DNA of 57,985 nucleotides from Sharpea azabuensis DSM 18934 (lineage in GTDB: Bacteria > Bacillota_I > Bacilli_A > Erysipelotrichales > Coprobacillaceae), in NCBI RefSeq assembly GCF_000702165.1, contig NZ_JNKU01000011.1, positions 1 through 57,985 on the forward strand, written 5' to 3'. Positions 47,544 through 57,985 of this stretch are shown here, piece after piece. A program made the position numbers and the translations under genes. Position 1 is the stretch's first letter, and each line of letters begins with the position of its first letter. The notes beneath the pieces are model-generated. The model did no database searches and was not told the origin of the DNA. It was given only the letters and a program-made list of their open reading frames with translations.

Positions 47544-48848
47544 ATGGGATTGTTTACCGGCAAGGGACGAGCACATCTTGCAGGCCATAAAGACTTGACT
47601 ATGCATGGTGAAATTGCCCAATGTCCTGTTGGTGATACGATTGCCATTCCATTAGTAAATGGAACTGCGACCGATTTTGAAGTACTTGTAAAAGAAGGAG
47701 ATCATGTAAAGATTGGCAGCCTTTTAGCTGTACGCAAGAGCATGTATGTTCCACTCTATGCATCTGTTTCAGGTGTTGTCAAAGGGGTGGAGAAACGCAT
47801 GCACGCAACTAAGCGTCAGCAGAACCATATCATCATAGCTAATGATCATCTAGATGAGAAAATAAAAGTTATTGATATCAAAGATCCAGATCACATGACA
47901 CAAGAAAATATTGTTGATGCAATCAAGCAGCTTGGTATTGTCGGTATGGGTGGTTCTGGGTTTCCAACCTATAAGAAATATGAAGGGGTCAAAGATGTTG
48001 ATACCATTATTATTAATGGTGTTGAATGCGAACCTTATATTACTAGTGATTACCATGAAATGATGCTTCAAACAAAAGCTTTATTTGATGGTGCTGAATT
48101 TTTTAGAAAAGCAGCTAGTGCTAAGTGTGCAATTATTGCGATTAAGGTTGGCAAACCAGAATTGTATGCTCGATTGCAAGCAATGGCGAAAAGTTATGAA
48201 CATATTTCAGTTACACAAGTACCTGATGTCTATCCGATGGGATGGGAACGCCTGTTGATTGAAACAGTTACAAAACGTACTTATGACCGCTTACCAAGTG
48301 AAGCCCATGTCATTGTTGATAATGCCGCCAGTGCAATCAGCTTGAGTAATGGTATTCGTAGTGGTATGCCAGTGATTGAGCGACTTGTTACAGTAAGTGG
48401 TAACGGTATTAAATATCCAACAAATATTAGAGTAAGAGTTGGAACACCAGTTCATGAGATTATTGAAGCTATTGGTGGCTATATTGCCGATGGTGAGGGT
48501 TATGTGCTTGCTGGTGGACCGATGATGGGGCGTTCAATTACCAATGATCAGTTCGTTATTTCTGAATATATGAATGCGATTACGGTTCTTAAAAAGCAGG
48601 AAGAACATACTTTTGCATGCTTAAAATGTGGTGAGTGCACTTTGCATTGTCCAATGCATCTCCAGCCTGTGCGTATAATGCAGGCAGAAAAGGCAAATGA
48701 TAGTGATTTATTAGGAAAACTTGATGTCATGCGCTGTGTTGAGTGTGGCATGTGTTCTTATATCTGCCCAAGCAAAATCGAAGTCACAGACTTTGTTGCT
48801 AAAGGGAAACGTCGTTATGGTCTGACATTAAGGAGGAAAAAAGCATGA
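47544..48848 (+). CDS. rnfC: Rnf complex subunit C
   Basis: 434 residues. The NADH/flavin-binding core has GMGGSGFPTYKKY and GVECEPYITSD. Near the C-terminus are two [4Fe-4S] motifs, with cysteines at about 359, 362, 365, 369 and 398, 401, 404, 408. RnfC accepts or donates electrons at NAD(H) on the cytoplasmic side of the ferredoxin:NAD+ oxidoreductase. There is no long C-terminal alanine-rich extension as in proteobacteria. The ATG of rnfD overlaps its stop codon. Confidence 0.95.
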   Translation: MGLFTGKGRAHLAGHKDLTMHGEIAQCPVGDTIAIPLVNGTATDFEVLVKEGDHVKIGSLLAVRKSMYVPLYASVSGVVKGVEKRMHATKRQQNHIIIANDHLDEKIKVIDIKDPDHMTQENIVDAIKQLGIVGMGGSGFPTYKKYEGVKDVDTIIINGVECEPYITSDYHEMMLQTKALFDGAEFFRKAASAKCAIIAIKVGKPELYARLQAMAKSYEHISVTQVPDVYPMGWERLLIETVTKRTYDRLPSEAHVIVDNAASAISLSNGIRSGMPVIERLVTVSGNGIKYPTNIRVRVGTPVHEIIEAIGGYIADGEGYVLAGGPMMGRSITNDQFVISEYMNAITVLKKQEEHTFACLKCGECTLHCPMHLQPVRIMQAEKANDSDLLGKLDVMRCVECGMCSYICPSKIEVTDFVAKGKRRYGLTLRRKKA

Positions 48849-49948
48849 TTATTAAAATGAAACGAACAACACCTGCCTATCGTCAGCCACAATCTACGAC
48901 TACAATCATGCGTGATTTGCTGATTGCAGAAGTAACACTTGCGATTGCTTCTATTCTTATGCAGGTTTATCGTCATAATATTAACTATGGCCTCAAAGCA
49001 TTTGGAATGTACATTATGGCCATCTTGACAGCTCTTATAACAGAAGGCGTCTGGGCATGGATTCATCAAAAGCCTATGAAAAGCATTATCACTGATTCTT
49101 TCTGCCTTAATACGCCCATCATTTTTACCCTTACCTTACCAATTGGGACACCATATTATGTGGTTGTGATCGGGGCTTTTATTGCTACATTCTTTGGTAA
49201 GCTTGTCTATGGGGGATTTGGCCAGAACATCTTTAATCCGGCTCTTGTCGGACGTGTTGTCGTACATCTTTCATTTGCTTCAAAGCTGACAAATAGTCTT
49301 TCTCTTATTGATGCTTCAACATCACCAACACCAGCAACTGCGCTTGCTAAAACGAATTGGTTTGGCACATCAGCATTCCCTTATTCACTTAAGGATTTAC
49401 TACTTGGCATGCATGATGGGGCATTGGGTGAGGGCTTAATCATCCTTTTGGTTATTATTGGTGTCATATTAGCACTGCGCCATGTCTATGATCCACGTAT
49501 TACTCTTGGCTATCTTGGCAGTGTTGCTTTATTTGCCTTGGTAAGTGGGCTTGTATTAGGCATTAATCCATTTGTGAATTGTGCACGTCATCTTATGCTT
49601 GGTGGTCTGATGATCGGGGCAATCTTGATGGCGACCGATCCTGTTACTTCCCCAAGTTCACCACTTGGCAAAATCATTTATGGTATTTCTTTAGGCTTCT
49701 TAACTTTGCTTATTCGCTTGAAAGCCAATTATCCTGAAGGTGTTCTTTTTTCAATCTTGATTATGAATATGCTGACACCTTGGATTGATTCACTTATCCT
49801 TGGTAGAACAAGTGAACATCATTCAAAACAAATCGCAATCATTCTTATTATGTTATGTATTGGCATGGGGACTATTGGTGGCATCAGCACTACCCTTCAG
49901 CCACAAAAACAAAGTGAAGTAGGTGAGTTCTATGAAGCTCATTGTTAA
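48845..49948 (+). CDS. rnfD: Rnf complex subunit D
   Basis: 367 residues with about ten membrane helices. The covalent FMN site is probably the threonine in TPATALA (about residue 160), corresponding to the SGAT-like motif of RnfD/NqrB. Together with RnfA, E and G it forms the ion-pumping membrane sector. It overlaps rnfC by 4 bases and rnfG by 17. Confidence 0.94.
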   Translation: MIIKMKRTTPAYRQPQSTTTIMRDLLIAEVTLAIASILMQVYRHNINYGLKAFGMYIMAILTALITEGVWAWIHQKPMKSIITDSFCLNTPIIFTLTLPIGTPYYVVVIGAFIATFFGKLVYGGFGQNIFNPALVGRVVVHLSFASKLTNSLSLIDASTSPTPATALAKTNWFGTSAFPYSLKDLLLGMHDGALGEGLIILLVIIGVILALRHVYDPRITLGYLGSVALFALVSGLVLGINPFVNCARHLMLGGLMIGAILMATDPVTSPSSPLGKIIYGISLGFLTLLIRLKANYPEGVLFSILIMNMLTPWIDSLILGRTSEHHSKQIAIILIMLCIGMGTIGGISTTLQPQKQSEVGEFYEAHC

Positions 49949-50453
49949 ACTGACAATCTTTCTTGCCTTAGTTGCTGGCTTATCAGCTGGGGCTATGAGT
50001 TATGTCTTTAATCTTACAAATCCAATCATTACAAATGCCCAAAAAGAAGCTGAAACAAAGCAGCTCAATGCAATTTATAAAGAAAGTACATTCAAATCTA
50101 TATCATTCAATCATAAAACTTATAATCTCATTGAAAATATCTATGAAGCTAAAAAAGGTGAGCAGCTAGAAGGATATGTCTATAAGATTTCTACACCTGG
50201 ATATGGTGGCAATATTGTTTATCTTGTTGCACTTGATCAAAGTGGGAAGTATTTAGGCTATTCACCTATTGATGTTACAACGGAAACAAGTGGCTTTGGC
50301 AGCCGTGTTGGTACGAAGGAAATGGCTGATCACATCGATAAGAAAAAGATTGGTGCTGGGATTGATACACTTTCTGGAGCAACGATCTCTTCTAAAGCAG
50401 TCGTCAAGGGCATCAATCAGGCCACAGCTCATTATCAAAAGAATTATCAGTAA
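49932..50453 (+). CDS. rnfG: Rnf complex subunit G
   Basis: About 173 residues. One N-terminal membrane helix is followed by an outside FMN-binding domain; the covalent flavin threonine is in LSGATISSKAVV. ATG 49932 is preceded by AGTAGGTGAG; the frame opens at a GTG at 49923 that overlaps the ribosome site. Transfers electrons outside the membrane between RnfD and the other redox centres. Confidence 0.94.
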   Translation: MKLIVKLTIFLALVAGLSAGAMSYVFNLTNPIITNAQKEAETKQLNAIYKESTFKSISFNHKTYNLIENIYEAKKGEQLEGYVYKISTPGYGGNIVYLVALDQSGKYLGYSPIDVTTETSGFGSRVGTKEMADHIDKKKIGAGIDTLSGATISSKAVVKGINQATAHYQKNYQ

Positions 50454-50464
50454 GGAGGGAGAAC

Positions 50465-51133
50465 ATGAAAAAGCTTAAAATATTAACTAATGGCATTTGT
50501 AAAGAAAATCCTATCTTTGTCATGATGCTAGGAATGTGTTCTTCTCTTGCCATATCAACCTCATTAACTAATGCGATTGGAATGGGAATGGCAGTAACAG
50601 CTGTATTAGTTGCCAGCAATTTCATTATTTCATTATTGCGTAAAATCATCCCTGATGAGATCCGTATACCTGTCTTTATCATTATTATTGCCACGCTTGT
50701 AAAATGCGTGCAGCTCTTAATGAATGCCTATACACCTTCACTTTATACAAGTCTTGGTGTCTTTATCCCTTTGATTGTTGTCAATTGTATTATTCTTGGT
50801 CGTGCAGAAAGCTTTGCGAGTAAGAATAAGCCACTTGATTCAGTTCTTGATGGACTAGGCATGGGGATTGGCTATACGTTAGCAGTATTCATTATTGCTT
50901 TCTTTAGACAAATTATTGGTACGGGTGGCTTGTCCTTCTATAATCCGTTTAATAGTACACAGGTTTTCTTTGATCTCCATTTGTTTGATGAATATGCTAT
51001 ATCTTTATTTAAGTTGCCTGCAGGAGCTTTCTTAACACTTGGCTGTATTCTTGCTTTTATTAATAATCGCAAGATGAAAAAGGCCCTGAAAGTTGATCAG
51101 CAACTTGATAAGAAGGGAAGTGTGAAAAAATGA
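50465..51133 (+). CDS. rnfE: Rnf complex subunit E
   Basis: 222 residues, six hydrophobic helices, RnfA/RnfE/NqrDE family. Motifs GMCSSLAIST, VPLIVVNCIILGRAESFA-like block and GTGGLSFYN are visible. With RnfA it forms the inverted pair that holds the intramembrane iron-sulfur centre. Overlaps rnfA by 4 bases; AAGGAGG ribosome site. Confidence 0.94.
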   Translation: MKKLKILTNGICKENPIFVMMLGMCSSLAISTSLTNAIGMGMAVTAVLVASNFIISLLRKIIPDEIRIPVFIIIIATLVKCVQLLMNAYTPSLYTSLGVFIPLIVVNCIILGRAESFASKNKPLDSVLDGLGMGIGYTLAVFIIAFFRQIIGTGGLSFYNPFNSTQVFFDLHLFDEYAISLFKLPAGAFLTLGCILAFINNRKMKKALKVDQQLDKKGSVKK

Positions 51134-51705
51134 TGAAGCTATTTGGACTTTTTATCGCCTTGACATTTGTTAATAATGTTGTCTTATCAAAGTTCTATGC
51201 AATCTGCCCGCTCATGGGCTTATCAAAGAATCCTAAGAATGCACTGAATATGGGCATTGCTGTTATCTTTGTCATTTTCCTATCTTCAATTATTACTTGG
51301 TTGCTCTATTATTATGTTCTTGTGCCATTAAAGATTACTTATATGGACCTAATTACATTTATTCTTGTCATTGCATCATTAGTACAATTTCTTGAAATGT
51401 TCTTAAAGAAAACGAGTCCTGATATCTATAAATCAATGGGTGTCTATCTTCCTTTAATTACCACGAACTGTGCTGTATTAGGTGTAGCGTTGGATAATAT
51501 TACTGCTAACTATAATCTGATAGAAGCAGCTGTGGCAGGCATTGCTGTGCCATTAGGCTTCTTGATTGTCATTTATATCTTTGCGACGATTCGTCAGAGA
51601 CTTGAGATAGCTGATGTCCCTACATCATTCAAAGGAGCACCAATTGCTCTTATTACTGCCGGTATCATGGCTTGTGCAATTATGGGAATTGCAGGTGTTG
51701 TCTGA
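51130..51705 (+). CDS. rnfA: Rnf complex subunit A
   Basis: 191 residues, six helices, homologous to RnfE. FVNNVVLSKFYAICPLMGLSKN and ITTNCAVLGVALDN carry the membrane cysteines that bind the [2Fe-2S] centre between RnfA and RnfE. Its stop codon overlaps the ATG of the small Cys-rich protein, an unusual neighbour at the place where rnfB normally follows. Confidence 0.95.
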   Translation: MMKLFGLFIALTFVNNVVLSKFYAICPLMGLSKNPKNALNMGIAVIFVIFLSSIITWLLYYYVLVPLKITYMDLITFILVIASLVQFLEMFLKKTSPDIYKSMGVYLPLITTNCAVLGVALDNITANYNLIEAAVAGIAVPLGFLIVIYIFATIRQRLEIADVPTSFKGAPIALITAGIMACAIMGIAGVV

Positions 51706-51872
51706 TGGTATATGCAATAATCTGGTTTGCGATTCTTGTTTGTGTCTATATCGGTACATATTTATTAAATAGACATACAAAAAAGCCTGATGACTGTAAG
51801 ACGGATTTTACTGCCTGTCAGGGGTGTGCAAATATTGCTTGTGGACATTATAAAGAAGGTGAAATGAAATGA
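51705..51872 (+). CDS. Small Cys-rich membrane protein inside the rnf operon
   Basis: 55 residues: one membrane helix (about 3-21) and a cytosolic tail with C31, C38, C41, C46 and H48. The helix-plus-cysteine layout resembles the FeoB-associated Cys-rich membrane protein family (PF12669-like), a loose comparison. The ATG overlaps the rnfA stop (TGATG) and its own stop overlaps the rnfB start (ATGA), so it is translated as part of the operon. The cysteine set could bind an iron-sulfur cluster; perhaps it makes up for part of the missing RnfB domain (inference). Confidence 0.75.
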   Translation: MVYAIIWFAILVCVYIGTYLLNRHTKKPDDCKTDFTACQGCANIACGHYKEGEMK

Positions 51873-52174
51873 ATGCAGTGATTGCTTTAATGATCATAGG
51901 TGGCGTACTAGGCATGATGCTTGGCATTGCCCATAAATATCTTAAGGTTGAAGTTGATCAGCGAATTGATGTTGTAACTGATAAATTGCCTGGTGTCAAC
52001 TGTGGTGGATGTGGTTATCCTGGATGTCATGGATTGGCTGAAGCGCTCGTAGAAGGGGAGGTGCAAACACCTAATAAATGTGTGGTAGCATCTTCGATTG
52101 CTAAGAAAGAGATTGCTGACTACTTAAATACAACACCGGGTCCTGATGGCAAATGCCTTCAAATTAAATGTTAG
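51869..52174 (+). CDS. rnfB: Short RnfB lacking the ferredoxin domain
   Basis: 101 residues; RnfB usually has 180 to over 300. The N-terminal membrane helix (about 3-22) and the first cluster domain are intact with C45, C48, C53 and C71 in NCGGCGYPGCHGLAEALVEG...C. The ferredoxin-like domain with two further [4Fe-4S] clusters that should follow is absent. Two extra cysteines (C96, C101) end the chain. The stop is followed 5 bases later by a terminator, and there is no downstream frame carrying the lost part. Confidence 0.88.
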   Translation: MNAVIALMIIGGVLGMMLGIAHKYLKVEVDQRIDVVTDKLPGVNCGGCGYPGCHGLAEALVEGEVQTPNKCVVASSIAKKEIADYLNTTPGPDGKCLQIKC

Positions 52175-52179
52175 TAGAA

Positions 52180-52207
52180 AAGAGGATGTCAAAACATCCT
52201 CTTTTAA
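52180..52207 (+). terminator. Terminator of the rnf operon
   Basis: AAGAGGATGT, CAAA, ACATCCTCTT and a short T-run. Confidence 0.85.
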
Positions 52208-55002: not shown

Positions 55003-56310
55003 ATGGCAGTTATCGAAACGAAGATTCTTAACCTTGTCTTCCCTAAGGAAAACCTTATGGAAGTCTTAGATATTTTGGATCATTCAGAGTTTTATCATCC
55101 TATCCCTTCAAGTCAGCTTGCACATGAACTTAAGGATGTTCATACCCTTACACCTACAAGAGACTATGAAGATTTGCAAAGGGAAGTTGTTGATAGTGCA
55201 AAAAGATTACATCTAGACTTAAATGCAGAATTAAGTCCTGATATTTCAGTGGACTTAGAAGCGACAAAAAAATATTTAAATGATATCAATGCACAGATTG
55301 ATGAAATAGATAAGATCAAAGAAAACATTCTTCATGATTTAAATGAGAATAAAGAAGTTATTGAATTCTTAAACAAATGTACAACAAAGAATATCAATGT
55401 TGAAGATCTGATGAATGCAAATTATCTTACTGTACGCTTTGGTTCTTTAGACAATAGTCAGATGGATAATCTCAAGTATTATTTAGAACGACCTTTTGTT
55501 TATGATTTCTTAAAGAAAGGTGCAAAAGAGACTTGGCTCTATTATATTGCGACAAATAAAGATATTGGTGAAATCGATAATATCTTTGGTGCATTGAATT
55601 TTAAAAAGATTGAAATGCCTAAGATTGTCCATGGCACAAATACAGATGCACTTAATGCACTAAATGAACAAAAGAATGCAATGGATGAATATATCATTCA
55701 TATGGATGGCAAACTTGATCTTATCAAAGATAAAGAAACATTAAAATTACAGAAGCTTTATGCGACAGCTTTACATTTAGATAAGCTTGAACAGGAAAAA
55801 GAGTATGTCTTAGATTTGTTGACAAAGTATTCTTTATCGGGATTTATCACAACAAATCATATTCCAGCATTCAAGCAGTTATTTAAGAATATTAATGACA
55901 TGAACTTTACAGAATTGCCAACAGATGCAATTACTGACCAGAAGCTTGAAGTGCCTACAGAAACAAATAACGCAGGTGTGCTCAAAGATTTCGAAGCTCT
56001 TTCACATCCGGAAGCAGGAAAGCGTGATGTAACACTTGGTTACGCTATTCTCTGTAATGCAGTCTTTGCTTTATGCTTTGGTGATTTTGGCTTAGCTCTT
56101 GTGCTTCTTGCTCTTGCCTTGAAAAAGAACAATAAGATGCTTTTATCACTTGCGATTGCAAGCTTTGTAGGAGCATTCTTATATGGAAAGGTGTTCTATT
56201 ACTGGTCATTTACACCAACAATTATTCCTATACATGTAGTTGTACGTCTATTTGCGGGATTAGTTGTACTTGTTGTTGGCAAGTTTGTTCTTGATGCATG
56301 TAAACGTTAA
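55003..56310 (+). CDS. V-type ATPase subunit I-like protein with shortened membrane domain
   Basis: 435 residues versus about 650 for subunit I (NtpI). The first 340 residues match the cytosolic part in layout: MAVIETKILNLVFPKENL opening, a helical coiled region (about 70-130), a second long helix (about 215-260) and SGFITTNHIPAFKQL. Only about three hydrophobic helices follow (345-430), starting with FALCFGDFGLALVLL, reminiscent of the FGDxGYG helix of subunit I, where seven or eight would be expected. No other V-ATPase genes are in the window. The stop is clean and 16 bases before the insertion sequence, so truncation by the element is not evident. Confidence 0.7.
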   Translation: MAVIETKILNLVFPKENLMEVLDILDHSEFYHPIPSSQLAHELKDVHTLTPTRDYEDLQREVVDSAKRLHLDLNAELSPDISVDLEATKKYLNDINAQIDEIDKIKENILHDLNENKEVIEFLNKCTTKNINVEDLMNANYLTVRFGSLDNSQMDNLKYYLERPFVYDFLKKGAKETWLYYIATNKDIGEIDNIFGALNFKKIEMPKIVHGTNTDALNALNEQKNAMDEYIIHMDGKLDLIKDKETLKLQKLYATALHLDKLEQEKEYVLDLLTKYSLSGFITTNHIPAFKQLFKNINDMNFTELPTDAITDQKLEVPTETNNAGVLKDFEALSHPEAGKRDVTLGYAILCNAVFALCFGDFGLALVLLALALKKNNKMLLSLAIASFVGAFLYGKVFYYWSFTPTIIPIHVVVRLFAGLVVLVVGKFVLDACKR

Positions 56311-56372: not shown

Positions 56373-56403
56373 CAAGGTCAATTAGATTTGGCCTTGTTTT
56401 TTT
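56373..56403 (+). terminator. Plus-strand terminator inside the IS end
   Basis: CAAGGTC, ten-base loop, GGCCTTG and seven Ts. It would stop transcription from the V-ATPase-like gene and shield the element. Confidence 0.72.
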
Positions 56404-57420
56404 ATTGTTGTGCTTGCGCCTGATGTTTTGCTTTGCTCTTCTCAATCCCTTCCCAGAATCGTTCTATTCTTCTGTTTGGTGCAATTGGATACTGTTCTGG
56501 TGTAACTGCAGTCAGTGCTTCCTGTCTTACCTGATTTGCAGTCTTCCCATGAAAACGTTTCTGTGGATATCTATAGATATAGTATTCATATGTCCTGTAA
56601 ATGATATCTGCAGCTTCTTCATACGCAAATAGAACCCTGGCCATATCCTTGATGAATCCCTGAAAGGATTCTACTGGTCCGTCATCGATACAATGGCCAA
56701 CCCGTGACATGGATTGTGTCAGTCCGTCATTCTCAAGCATCCTGGAAAATACCTTGCGTGTGTATTGAAATCCTCTGTCGCTGTGCAGGAGCGGAGTAGC
56801 TCCCTGATTCAAGGTGATGGCCATGAAGTATGTATCATTGACCAGTTTGGTATCGTTTCTTCTGCTGACGACAACGCCAACCGGATATCGGTCATACAGG
56901 TCAAGGATCGTGCTGACATATAATTTATCACCAGCGTATTTCAGTTCGGTTATGTCGGTACCCCATCTCAGATTCGTTGCTTCGGCATTGAAATCCCAAT
57001 CCAGTACGTTATCCTTTGTTTCCTGTAATTGGAATGACGCCGGCCAATGCGGAAATGAGATTCTATGCCATTGACGGCCATGATGCGATAGATACGCTTG
57101 CGATTATACTTCACATCACTGTTATTATTGAGCGCATAGGTCATCTTCTGATAGCCAAACAGGCTGTTGTTTTCATCGGCAATGGCCCGCATGAGGGGAA
57201 GTATCCTTGCATCTTCTATGTCCACTCTGGATGGCTTGCGATGGATCCATTTATAATAGGATGCCCTGGATATTCCAGCCAGCTGACACAGATACTGTAT
57301 GGAACACTGTTCGTCACTGCTCGTTGTTTGAATTGATTCATAAATCCATGTCTTTATCTTATGCCGCAGTGCTGGCTGAGCAATCTTCGGCGCATTCTCT
57401 ATCGCCCCCTCCCTAATTCG
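56402..57420 (-). pseudogene. IS3-family transposase orfB, frameshifted
   Basis: The frame is open from about 57420 down to 56968, covering the HTH_21 region (SIQYLCQLAGISRASYYKW, then LFGYQKMTYALNNN). At about 57035 the reading shifts: NVLDWDFNAEATNLRWGTDITE with the first catalytic aspartate continues in another frame into LLHSDRGFQY (second aspartate) and DDGPVESFQGFIKD (glutamate) and ends at 56402. All three DDE residues survive but in two frames. There is no ATG at the start; orfB of this family is normally made by programmed frameshift from orfA. Confidence 0.82.
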
Positions 57421-57985
57421 CTGAGTTTTTTTAAGAACATGACCTCTATTTCTTTTCGTCTCAGTTCTTCCTTCAGTCGTTTGTTTTCCCTTTCCAGTCT
57501 TTCCATGTCAGTAAGGTCTTCCTCTGCCTTGCGATGTCCGCGGTTGTCATTCAGGCCATCTGTTCCCTGCCTGTCATATTTGCGTACCCATGAATAGACC
57601 TGGGAATAGCTGCAGCCATATTTTGCGGCTGTTTCTTTATAATTGCAATCATGATTTATGCAGTACTGAACGATCTCCATTCTTTCTTCTTTTGTTGTTT
57701 TCTTTCTGCCATATAGACCTCCGGATGGGGACAATAATCCCTCTGCTCTATATGGTTATTATACCGCTTGATCCATTGAACGATGACTGTTTTACTGGAA
57801 ATATTGTATTTTGTTGCCAGTTCGTCCGGTGACAGTCCGTTCTGTACATAATCCTGAACGACCATTTCTTTGAATTCTTTTGAGTAAGATGAATTTCTTT
57901 CTTTAGGCTTGAGAGCTTCTTGCCCGTTAGCTTTATAGAGATTCGACCATTCACGTATTCTGTTGTCACCATTTTTCCCCATATC
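57399..57985 (-). pseudogene. IS3-family transposase orfA, frameshifted and partial
   Basis: Two helix-turn-helix parts in different frames. The upstream part (57656-57985, running off the edge) has YSKEFKEMVVQDYVQNGLS and LATKYNISSKTVIVQWIKRY. Near 57735, after YNNHIEQRDY, the proper continuation GGLYGRKKTTKEERMEIV is found in the other frame and runs to 57399 through a leucine-zipper-like helix (LERENKRLKEELRRKEIE). A one-base loss or two-base gain explains the break. The final part overlaps the open orfB frame as expected. Confidence 0.8.

Follow-up and report, generated by a model that had tools for sequence, protein, structure and literature searches.

The window analysed here, a 57,985-nucleotide stretch of Sharpea azabuensis DSM 18934 (contig NZ_JNKU01000011.1), carries a set of rnf genes on its forward strand. 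Open reading frames and profile matches give the order rnfC-D-G-E-A-sCys-B, in which sCys is a small gene of no described family; an earlier note, made from the sequence alone, had read the same order. The product of rnfC (47544..48848, 434 aa) has an NADH/FMN domain, an SLBB domain and two [4Fe-4S] motifs, exceeds the TIGR01945 cut-off with 351 bits and matches Complex1_51K, RnfC_N and Fer4. RnfD (48845..49948, 367 aa) matches PF03116 and scores 207.4 bits against TIGR01946 (cut-off 207.05), and the FMN-binding RnfG (49923..50453, 176 aa), with an SGAT motif within LSGATISS, matches PF04205 FMN_bind (E 3e-12) and reaches 90.9 bits for TIGR01947, under the cut-off of 102. RnfE (50465..51133, 222 aa; TIGR01948, 243 bits) and RnfA (51130..51705, 191 aa; TIGR01943, 230.5 bits) each keep both cluster cysteines, within MLGMC and VVNC in alignments of RnfE to 7zc6_E and 9eri_E and within AICP/ICPLMG and TTNC in an alignment of RnfA to 9eri_A, so that the RnfA/RnfE [2Fe-2S] site has its full set of four cysteines. 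With sCys (51705..51872, 55 aa) and rnfB (51869..52174, 101 aa) the set is complete: all six subunits of the Rnf complex are encoded together, RnfG and RnfB matching below their NCBIfam cut-offs.

The earlier note placed a stop/start overlap at every junction. Overlaps of 1–4 bp do join C/D, E/A, A/sCys and sCys/B, whereas rnfD and rnfG overlap by 26 bp (17 bp counted from an in-frame ATG) and an 11-bp gap separates rnfG from rnfE. A hairpin at 52178..52205 on the same strand, with a 12-bp stem, a 4-nt loop and a T run at its end (CTCTTTTAAAA; −17.6 kcal/mol, z −4.75), is likely the terminator. Further downstream, positions 55003–56310 hold a 435-aa open reading frame that by eye resembles V-type ATP synthase subunit I and has no Pfam match; fragments of an IS-type transposase (56402–57982) follow it at the contig end.

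The RnfB of the window is essentially a membrane helix followed by a single-cluster FeS (B8) domain. Its sole Pfam match is PF04060 FeS (E 1e-13, residues 40–72), it aligns to residues 8–92 of the 274-aa Clostridium tetanomorphum RnfB and to residues 12–94 of the 333-aa Acetobacterium woodii RnfB, and its 62.1 bits against TIGR01944 fall below the NCBIfam cut-off of 68.7. The reading frame ends after the FeS domain, and no C-terminal ferredoxin domain carrying at least two clusters follows, which bears out the earlier description of this RnfB as a helix and a first four-cysteine site alone. Because rnfB ends at 52174 and the hairpin begins at 52178, the gene truly stops there. PF04060 occurs once in the genome assembly (91 contigs, rated 100% complete), which excludes the full-length second rnfB that the earlier note had considered. 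We recognised no stand-alone polyferredoxin or RnfB tail that could replace the missing domain among the genome's Fer4 matches whose reading frames were read; by reading, these are PPOX-Fer4 proteins, a glycyl-radical activase, sulfite reductase subunits, hydrogenases and NADH-type proteins, an aldo-keto reductase, a PreA-like protein, a NosR-like membrane protein and a small single-[4Fe-4S] ferredoxin (locus L166). The nearest named relative, Sharpea porci, has a 95% identical RnfB (L040), and the four-cysteine motif of the FeS domain is present in 103 of 103 short RnfBs scanned. A structure model of the window's RnfB was of low confidence (pLDDT 66), and a fold search of the PDB with it returned no matches.

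The small protein read from the ATG at 51705 has 55 residues (66 if translation begins at an alternative TTG at 51672) and is a small membrane protein made of one N-terminal helix and a cysteine tail. The earlier note had listed its single helix and C31, C38, C41, C46 and H48, all of which are present, arranged as C31-x6-C38-x2-C41-x4-C46; an additional C13 lies inside the helix. Across the class the protein ranges from 35 to 80 residues. Across 20 diverse sequences only C38, C41 and C46 never vary; C31 is not universal, a fourth, upstream cysteine being found in 71 of 90, and H48 is not conserved, a histidine occurring in the four residues that follow the cysteine core in 49 of 94 relatives. 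The core is C-x2-C-x4-C in 81 of these 94, with x5 in 7 and x3 in 2, and further short variants occur in the smallest genomes; cysteine number and spacing also differ in G301, G432 and G529. Even in genomes of 0.8–0.9 Mb, where it has about 35–40 residues, sCys keeps at least three cysteines. Lysines and arginines average 2.3 after the helix and 0.46 before it, a positive charge on the C-terminal side from which we infer that the cysteine tail is probably cytoplasmic, like that of RnfB.

The C-x2-C-x4-C core has the spacing of the first three cysteines in the FeS domain of RnfB. A profile of sCys aligned to RnfB with an hhalign probability of 89% and to FeoB-associated Cys-rich proteins with one of 93%; helix and cysteine composition may explain both. 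No NCBIfam family covered any of 16 sCys members, no Pfam family matched them over its cut-off, and a profile search of the PDB with sCys gave no match. A Pfam match to WCOR413 was below the cut-off and was set aside as probably reflecting helix similarity only.

We surveyed 245 genomes of the order for places matching PF04060, scoring sCys as linked when it lay within 700 bp. Among the 150 places listed, 99 have an open frame of 88–150 aa and 15 one of 260–298 aa, the others being mostly longer and different proteins; sCys was linked at 90 of the 99 short RnfBs and at none of the 15 long ones. Three of the nine short entries with no nearby sCys match are not true short RnfBs or cannot be judged: one (G076) runs off a contig end and belongs to a long-type operon without sCys (L009), one (G126:C58) represents only part of a longer protein (L162), and one (G238:C97) sits at a contig start. 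The genomes of the other six (G020, G097, G102, G127, G182 and G203) each contain an sCys match, which in G020 lies 226 bp from RnfB and in G102 within the operon itself (L161). A match to the small reading frame in 166 of the 245 order genomes, and in 118 of 392 genomes sampled across the phylum, excludes chance.

In the 392-genome phylum sample, all sCys matches fall within the class Bacilli in the GTDB sense, which takes in Erysipelotrichales and Acholeplasmatales relatives. The usual order across the many families read is C-D-G-E-A-sCys-B with an RnfB near 90–120 aa, so the arrangement of rnfA, small gene and short rnfB that the earlier note proposed to look for in relatives occurs in the order and across the class. 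PF02508, which covers RnfA/RnfE and NqrD/NqrE, is found in 134 genomes and the initial sCys profile in 118, with an overlap of 114. Of the 20 PF02508 genomes lacking an initial sCys match, six then gained one by inspection or with a wider profile. A divergent one-helix cysteine-containing frame lies between rnfA and rnfB in G443 and G457, and a version of 35–40 residues occupies that place in G399, G432 and G529. The operon of G351, without sCys, was the lone apparent exception, which predicted an unlinked copy; the wider profile then found one (E 1e-7), between genes for a phosphomutase and a uracil-DNA glycosylase, neighbours of the same kind as those of an unlinked copy in G508. Unlinked copies in two families (L229 and L106) both lie between these two genes, and the shared neighbours suggest one old relocation. 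Nine further genomes keep sCys away from their short-RnfB operon (G376, G410, G429, G436, G507, G517, G519, G525 and G563). The final count is sCys in 120 of 134 PF02508 genomes, with RnfB length checked in part of the 120; related genomes share ancestry, and such counts are not independent observations.

The 14 PF02508 genomes without sCys comprise four with a long RnfB (G025, G027, G029 and G455) and ten without a PF04060 RnfB (G260, G298, G333, G338, G377, G404, G459, G472, G570 and G496), of which the one opened, G459, carries an NQR operon. sCys thus follows Rnf with a short RnfB, not NQR or Rnf with a long RnfB, and it is kept wherever the short-RnfB subtype was found. Four genomes have an sCys match and no PF02508 match; three of these matches (E about 0.005) look spurious. 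The fourth (G437, L126 6151–6387) looks real, a gene resembling sCys in a genome with no match to RnfA/E or RnfB, possibly a relic or the product of an incomplete assembly.

Some loci depart from this scheme. In two genomes of one family (f19) RnfB has 183–187 aa, in which two FeS domains of the PF04060 type stand in tandem and a Fer4 domain is absent (L097 5625–6188, L117 5282–5833); their operons retain sCys, and this form is another way of extending a short RnfB. Family f9 genomes have two or even three Rnf operons with a short RnfB, several of these genomes also an NQR operon, together with extra unlinked proteins resembling sCys, some with further cysteines (L136–L140, L224, L225, L093, L095, L112 and L141). 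At L137, L140, L224 and L225 the RnfG open frames span about 630–670 aa, three times the usual length.

This distribution disposes of one rival account of the window, namely that a frameshift, premature stop or assembly error recently truncated RnfB and that the small frame is spurious. The earlier note had allowed for a truncation confined to this isolate. The same short form occurs at about 100 of the places listed for the order and across the class, the hairpin stands directly past the stop and the cysteine motif of the small frame is conserved; we consider a recent truncation refuted.

A tree of RnfA and RnfE unites every short-RnfB locus of the class in a single clade (SH-aLRT 99), next to which a long-RnfB locus from Acholeplasmataceae is placed with weak support. 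Outside this clade, on the side of A. woodii and C. tetanomorphum, lie the order's long-RnfB operons; the tree was built by a quick method and its support at the fork of the long-RnfB operons is weak. A single clade implies, most simply, one old origin of the short form together with sCys. For the same reason, sCys could serve any feature of the clade and not necessarily the missing RnfB domain. Across 75 loci the divergence of sCys tracks that of RnfA best (0.43), ahead of RnfB (0.20) and RnfE (0.17), and a distance test over 38 loci showed no partial correlation of sCys with RnfB. Residues of RnfA and RnfE that separate short from long Rnf amounted to only two uninformative positions, both in RnfE, and four loci in which sCys has lost its first cysteine showed no pattern of compensating RnfB cysteines.

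The complexes of A. woodii and C. tetanomorphum share with the window the six subunits, the gene order C-D-G-E-A-B, the [2Fe-2S] cysteines of RnfA/E and an RnfB helix with an FeS domain; the window differs in that its RnfB ends after that domain and that sCys stands between A and B. Structurally characterised RnfBs hold three to eight [4Fe-4S] clusters (PMC11889175, PMC12174285). Ferredoxin reduces their C-terminal clusters, and the electron then moves on to the mobile B8 domain (PMC11889175, PMC12174285); in A. woodii this domain, residues 30–100, is the part that attaches to RnfA/E and hands the electron over (PMC11889175). Extra subunits of a single Rnf lineage have a precedent in RnfH of Azotobacter vinelandii Rnf1, described as an additional, cofactor-free subunit that has no homologue in other complexes (PMC12174285).

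We put at about even odds a reading in which the class Bacilli has a subtype of the Rnf ferredoxin:NAD+ pump with a minimal electron-entry module and sCys as an accessory subunit. Soluble ferredoxin, here of the single-[4Fe-4S] type, would reduce the FeS domain of RnfB directly, without a polyferredoxin wire, and this domain would then reduce the RnfA/RnfE [2Fe-2S] cluster as in other Rnf complexes. sCys would sit beside RnfA and RnfB in stoichiometric amount, its tail holding a metal or Fe-S centre that might help ferredoxin or the FeS domain to dock, or relay the electron. The absence of C-terminal clusters, of a second RnfB and of a recognised stand-alone polyferredoxin supports the earlier proposal that electron entry into Rnf is reduced here, and that sCys is a subunit is favoured by its place in the operon, by frames that overlap those of its neighbours and by its strict retention. 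Against this reading count the varying number and spacing of the sCys cysteines, uncommon in a fixed electron-relay cluster, the divergence of sCys, which follows RnfA most, its presence without Rnf in G437 and a profile likeness to FeoB-associated proteins about as good as that to RnfB. A redox centre contributed in trans by the small protein, as the earlier note suggested, is possible; the observed spacing range (C-x2-C-x2 to x5-C, with an optional fourth cysteine) fits loose metal handling and a relay cluster equally. We are doubtful of the stronger version, in which sCys would be a redox-active Fe-S protein and the seventh subunit of a class-wide Rnf subtype, standing in for the polyferredoxin arm jointly with the minimal RnfB, so that ferredoxin would enter through two membrane-tethered single-cluster domains.

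As a close rival, sCys may be a maturation or iron-delivery factor that loads the RnfA/E [2Fe-2S] or the RnfB [4Fe-4S] cluster, much as NqrM does for NQR, and stays outside the electron path; we hold this plausible, at roughly one chance in three. NqrM (PF04400/DUF539), a small membrane-bound protein linked to the homologous NQR pump, has one helix plus cysteines, the same architecture as sCys. NQR is reported to depend on NqrM for its intramembrane cluster (PMC12174285). A chaperone would accord with cysteine spacing that varies and with copies that have left the operon. A divergence that tracks RnfA most also speaks for a maturation role, and so does the weak profile similarity to FeoB-associated Cys-rich proteins (PF12669), which likewise have one helix, a basic stretch and a cysteine cluster. 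Among 16 sCys members, 5 match PF12669 at E ≤ 1, the strongest at 0.0013; none passes the curated cut-off, and the window's protein has no match. The FeoB-associated proteins, however, mostly space their cysteines as C-x3-C-x2-C and are encoded next to feoB (PMC8749426), whereas sCys genes adjoin rnfA/rnfB or unrelated genes, and sCys genomes carry separate PF12669 genes. NqrM itself matches none of the 16 members at E ≤ 1, and sCys differs from it in operon position and in being tied to short-RnfB Rnf rather than NQR. sCys is missing from the long-RnfB Rnf and NQR operons of the class, even though the intramembrane cluster cysteines are the same in those NQR operons that were opened, and loading of such clusters apparently does without it. 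NqrM was found in 0 of 39 genomes, an absence that weighs little because no NQR-bearing control genome gave a match either; NQR-type operons (B-C-D-E-F; L209–L223) lie in class Bacilli genomes in which no NqrM was detected, again with no positive control. A purely structural or zinc-binding peptide that stabilises the shortened RnfB tether, with no redox or Fe-S role, would agree with a tiny, variable tail and with a frame overlapping both rnfA and rnfB, but we judge it improbable, since three or more cysteines are strictly kept, the smallest genomes included.

Searches of open-access papers for short RnfB, for Rnf in Erysipelotrichia or Mollicutes and for Cys-rich small proteins yielded no description of this arrangement. 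Passages on Rnf in papers on Peloplasma and Izemoplasma report the complex and make no comment on RnfB length. For Peloplasma aerotolerans, the published rnf gene list skips one locus number between its last two genes (PMC11122141), which would correspond to sCys. Annotation may miss the gene, which belongs to no Pfam or NCBIfam family, and the short RnfB also falls under the NCBI RnfB cut-off. The short-RnfB pattern is far more general than the earlier note supposed, and many of the species that have it are gut anaerobes. In recent cryo-EM structures, ferredoxin docks on the C-terminal clusters of RnfB. The constant presence of sCys where the arm is missing suggests that a component of this well-studied energy-conserving pump has gone unrecognised, and a whole bacterial class that runs Rnf without those clusters allows a direct test of what ferredoxin entry requires at a minimum and of whether the B8 domain is enough by itself.
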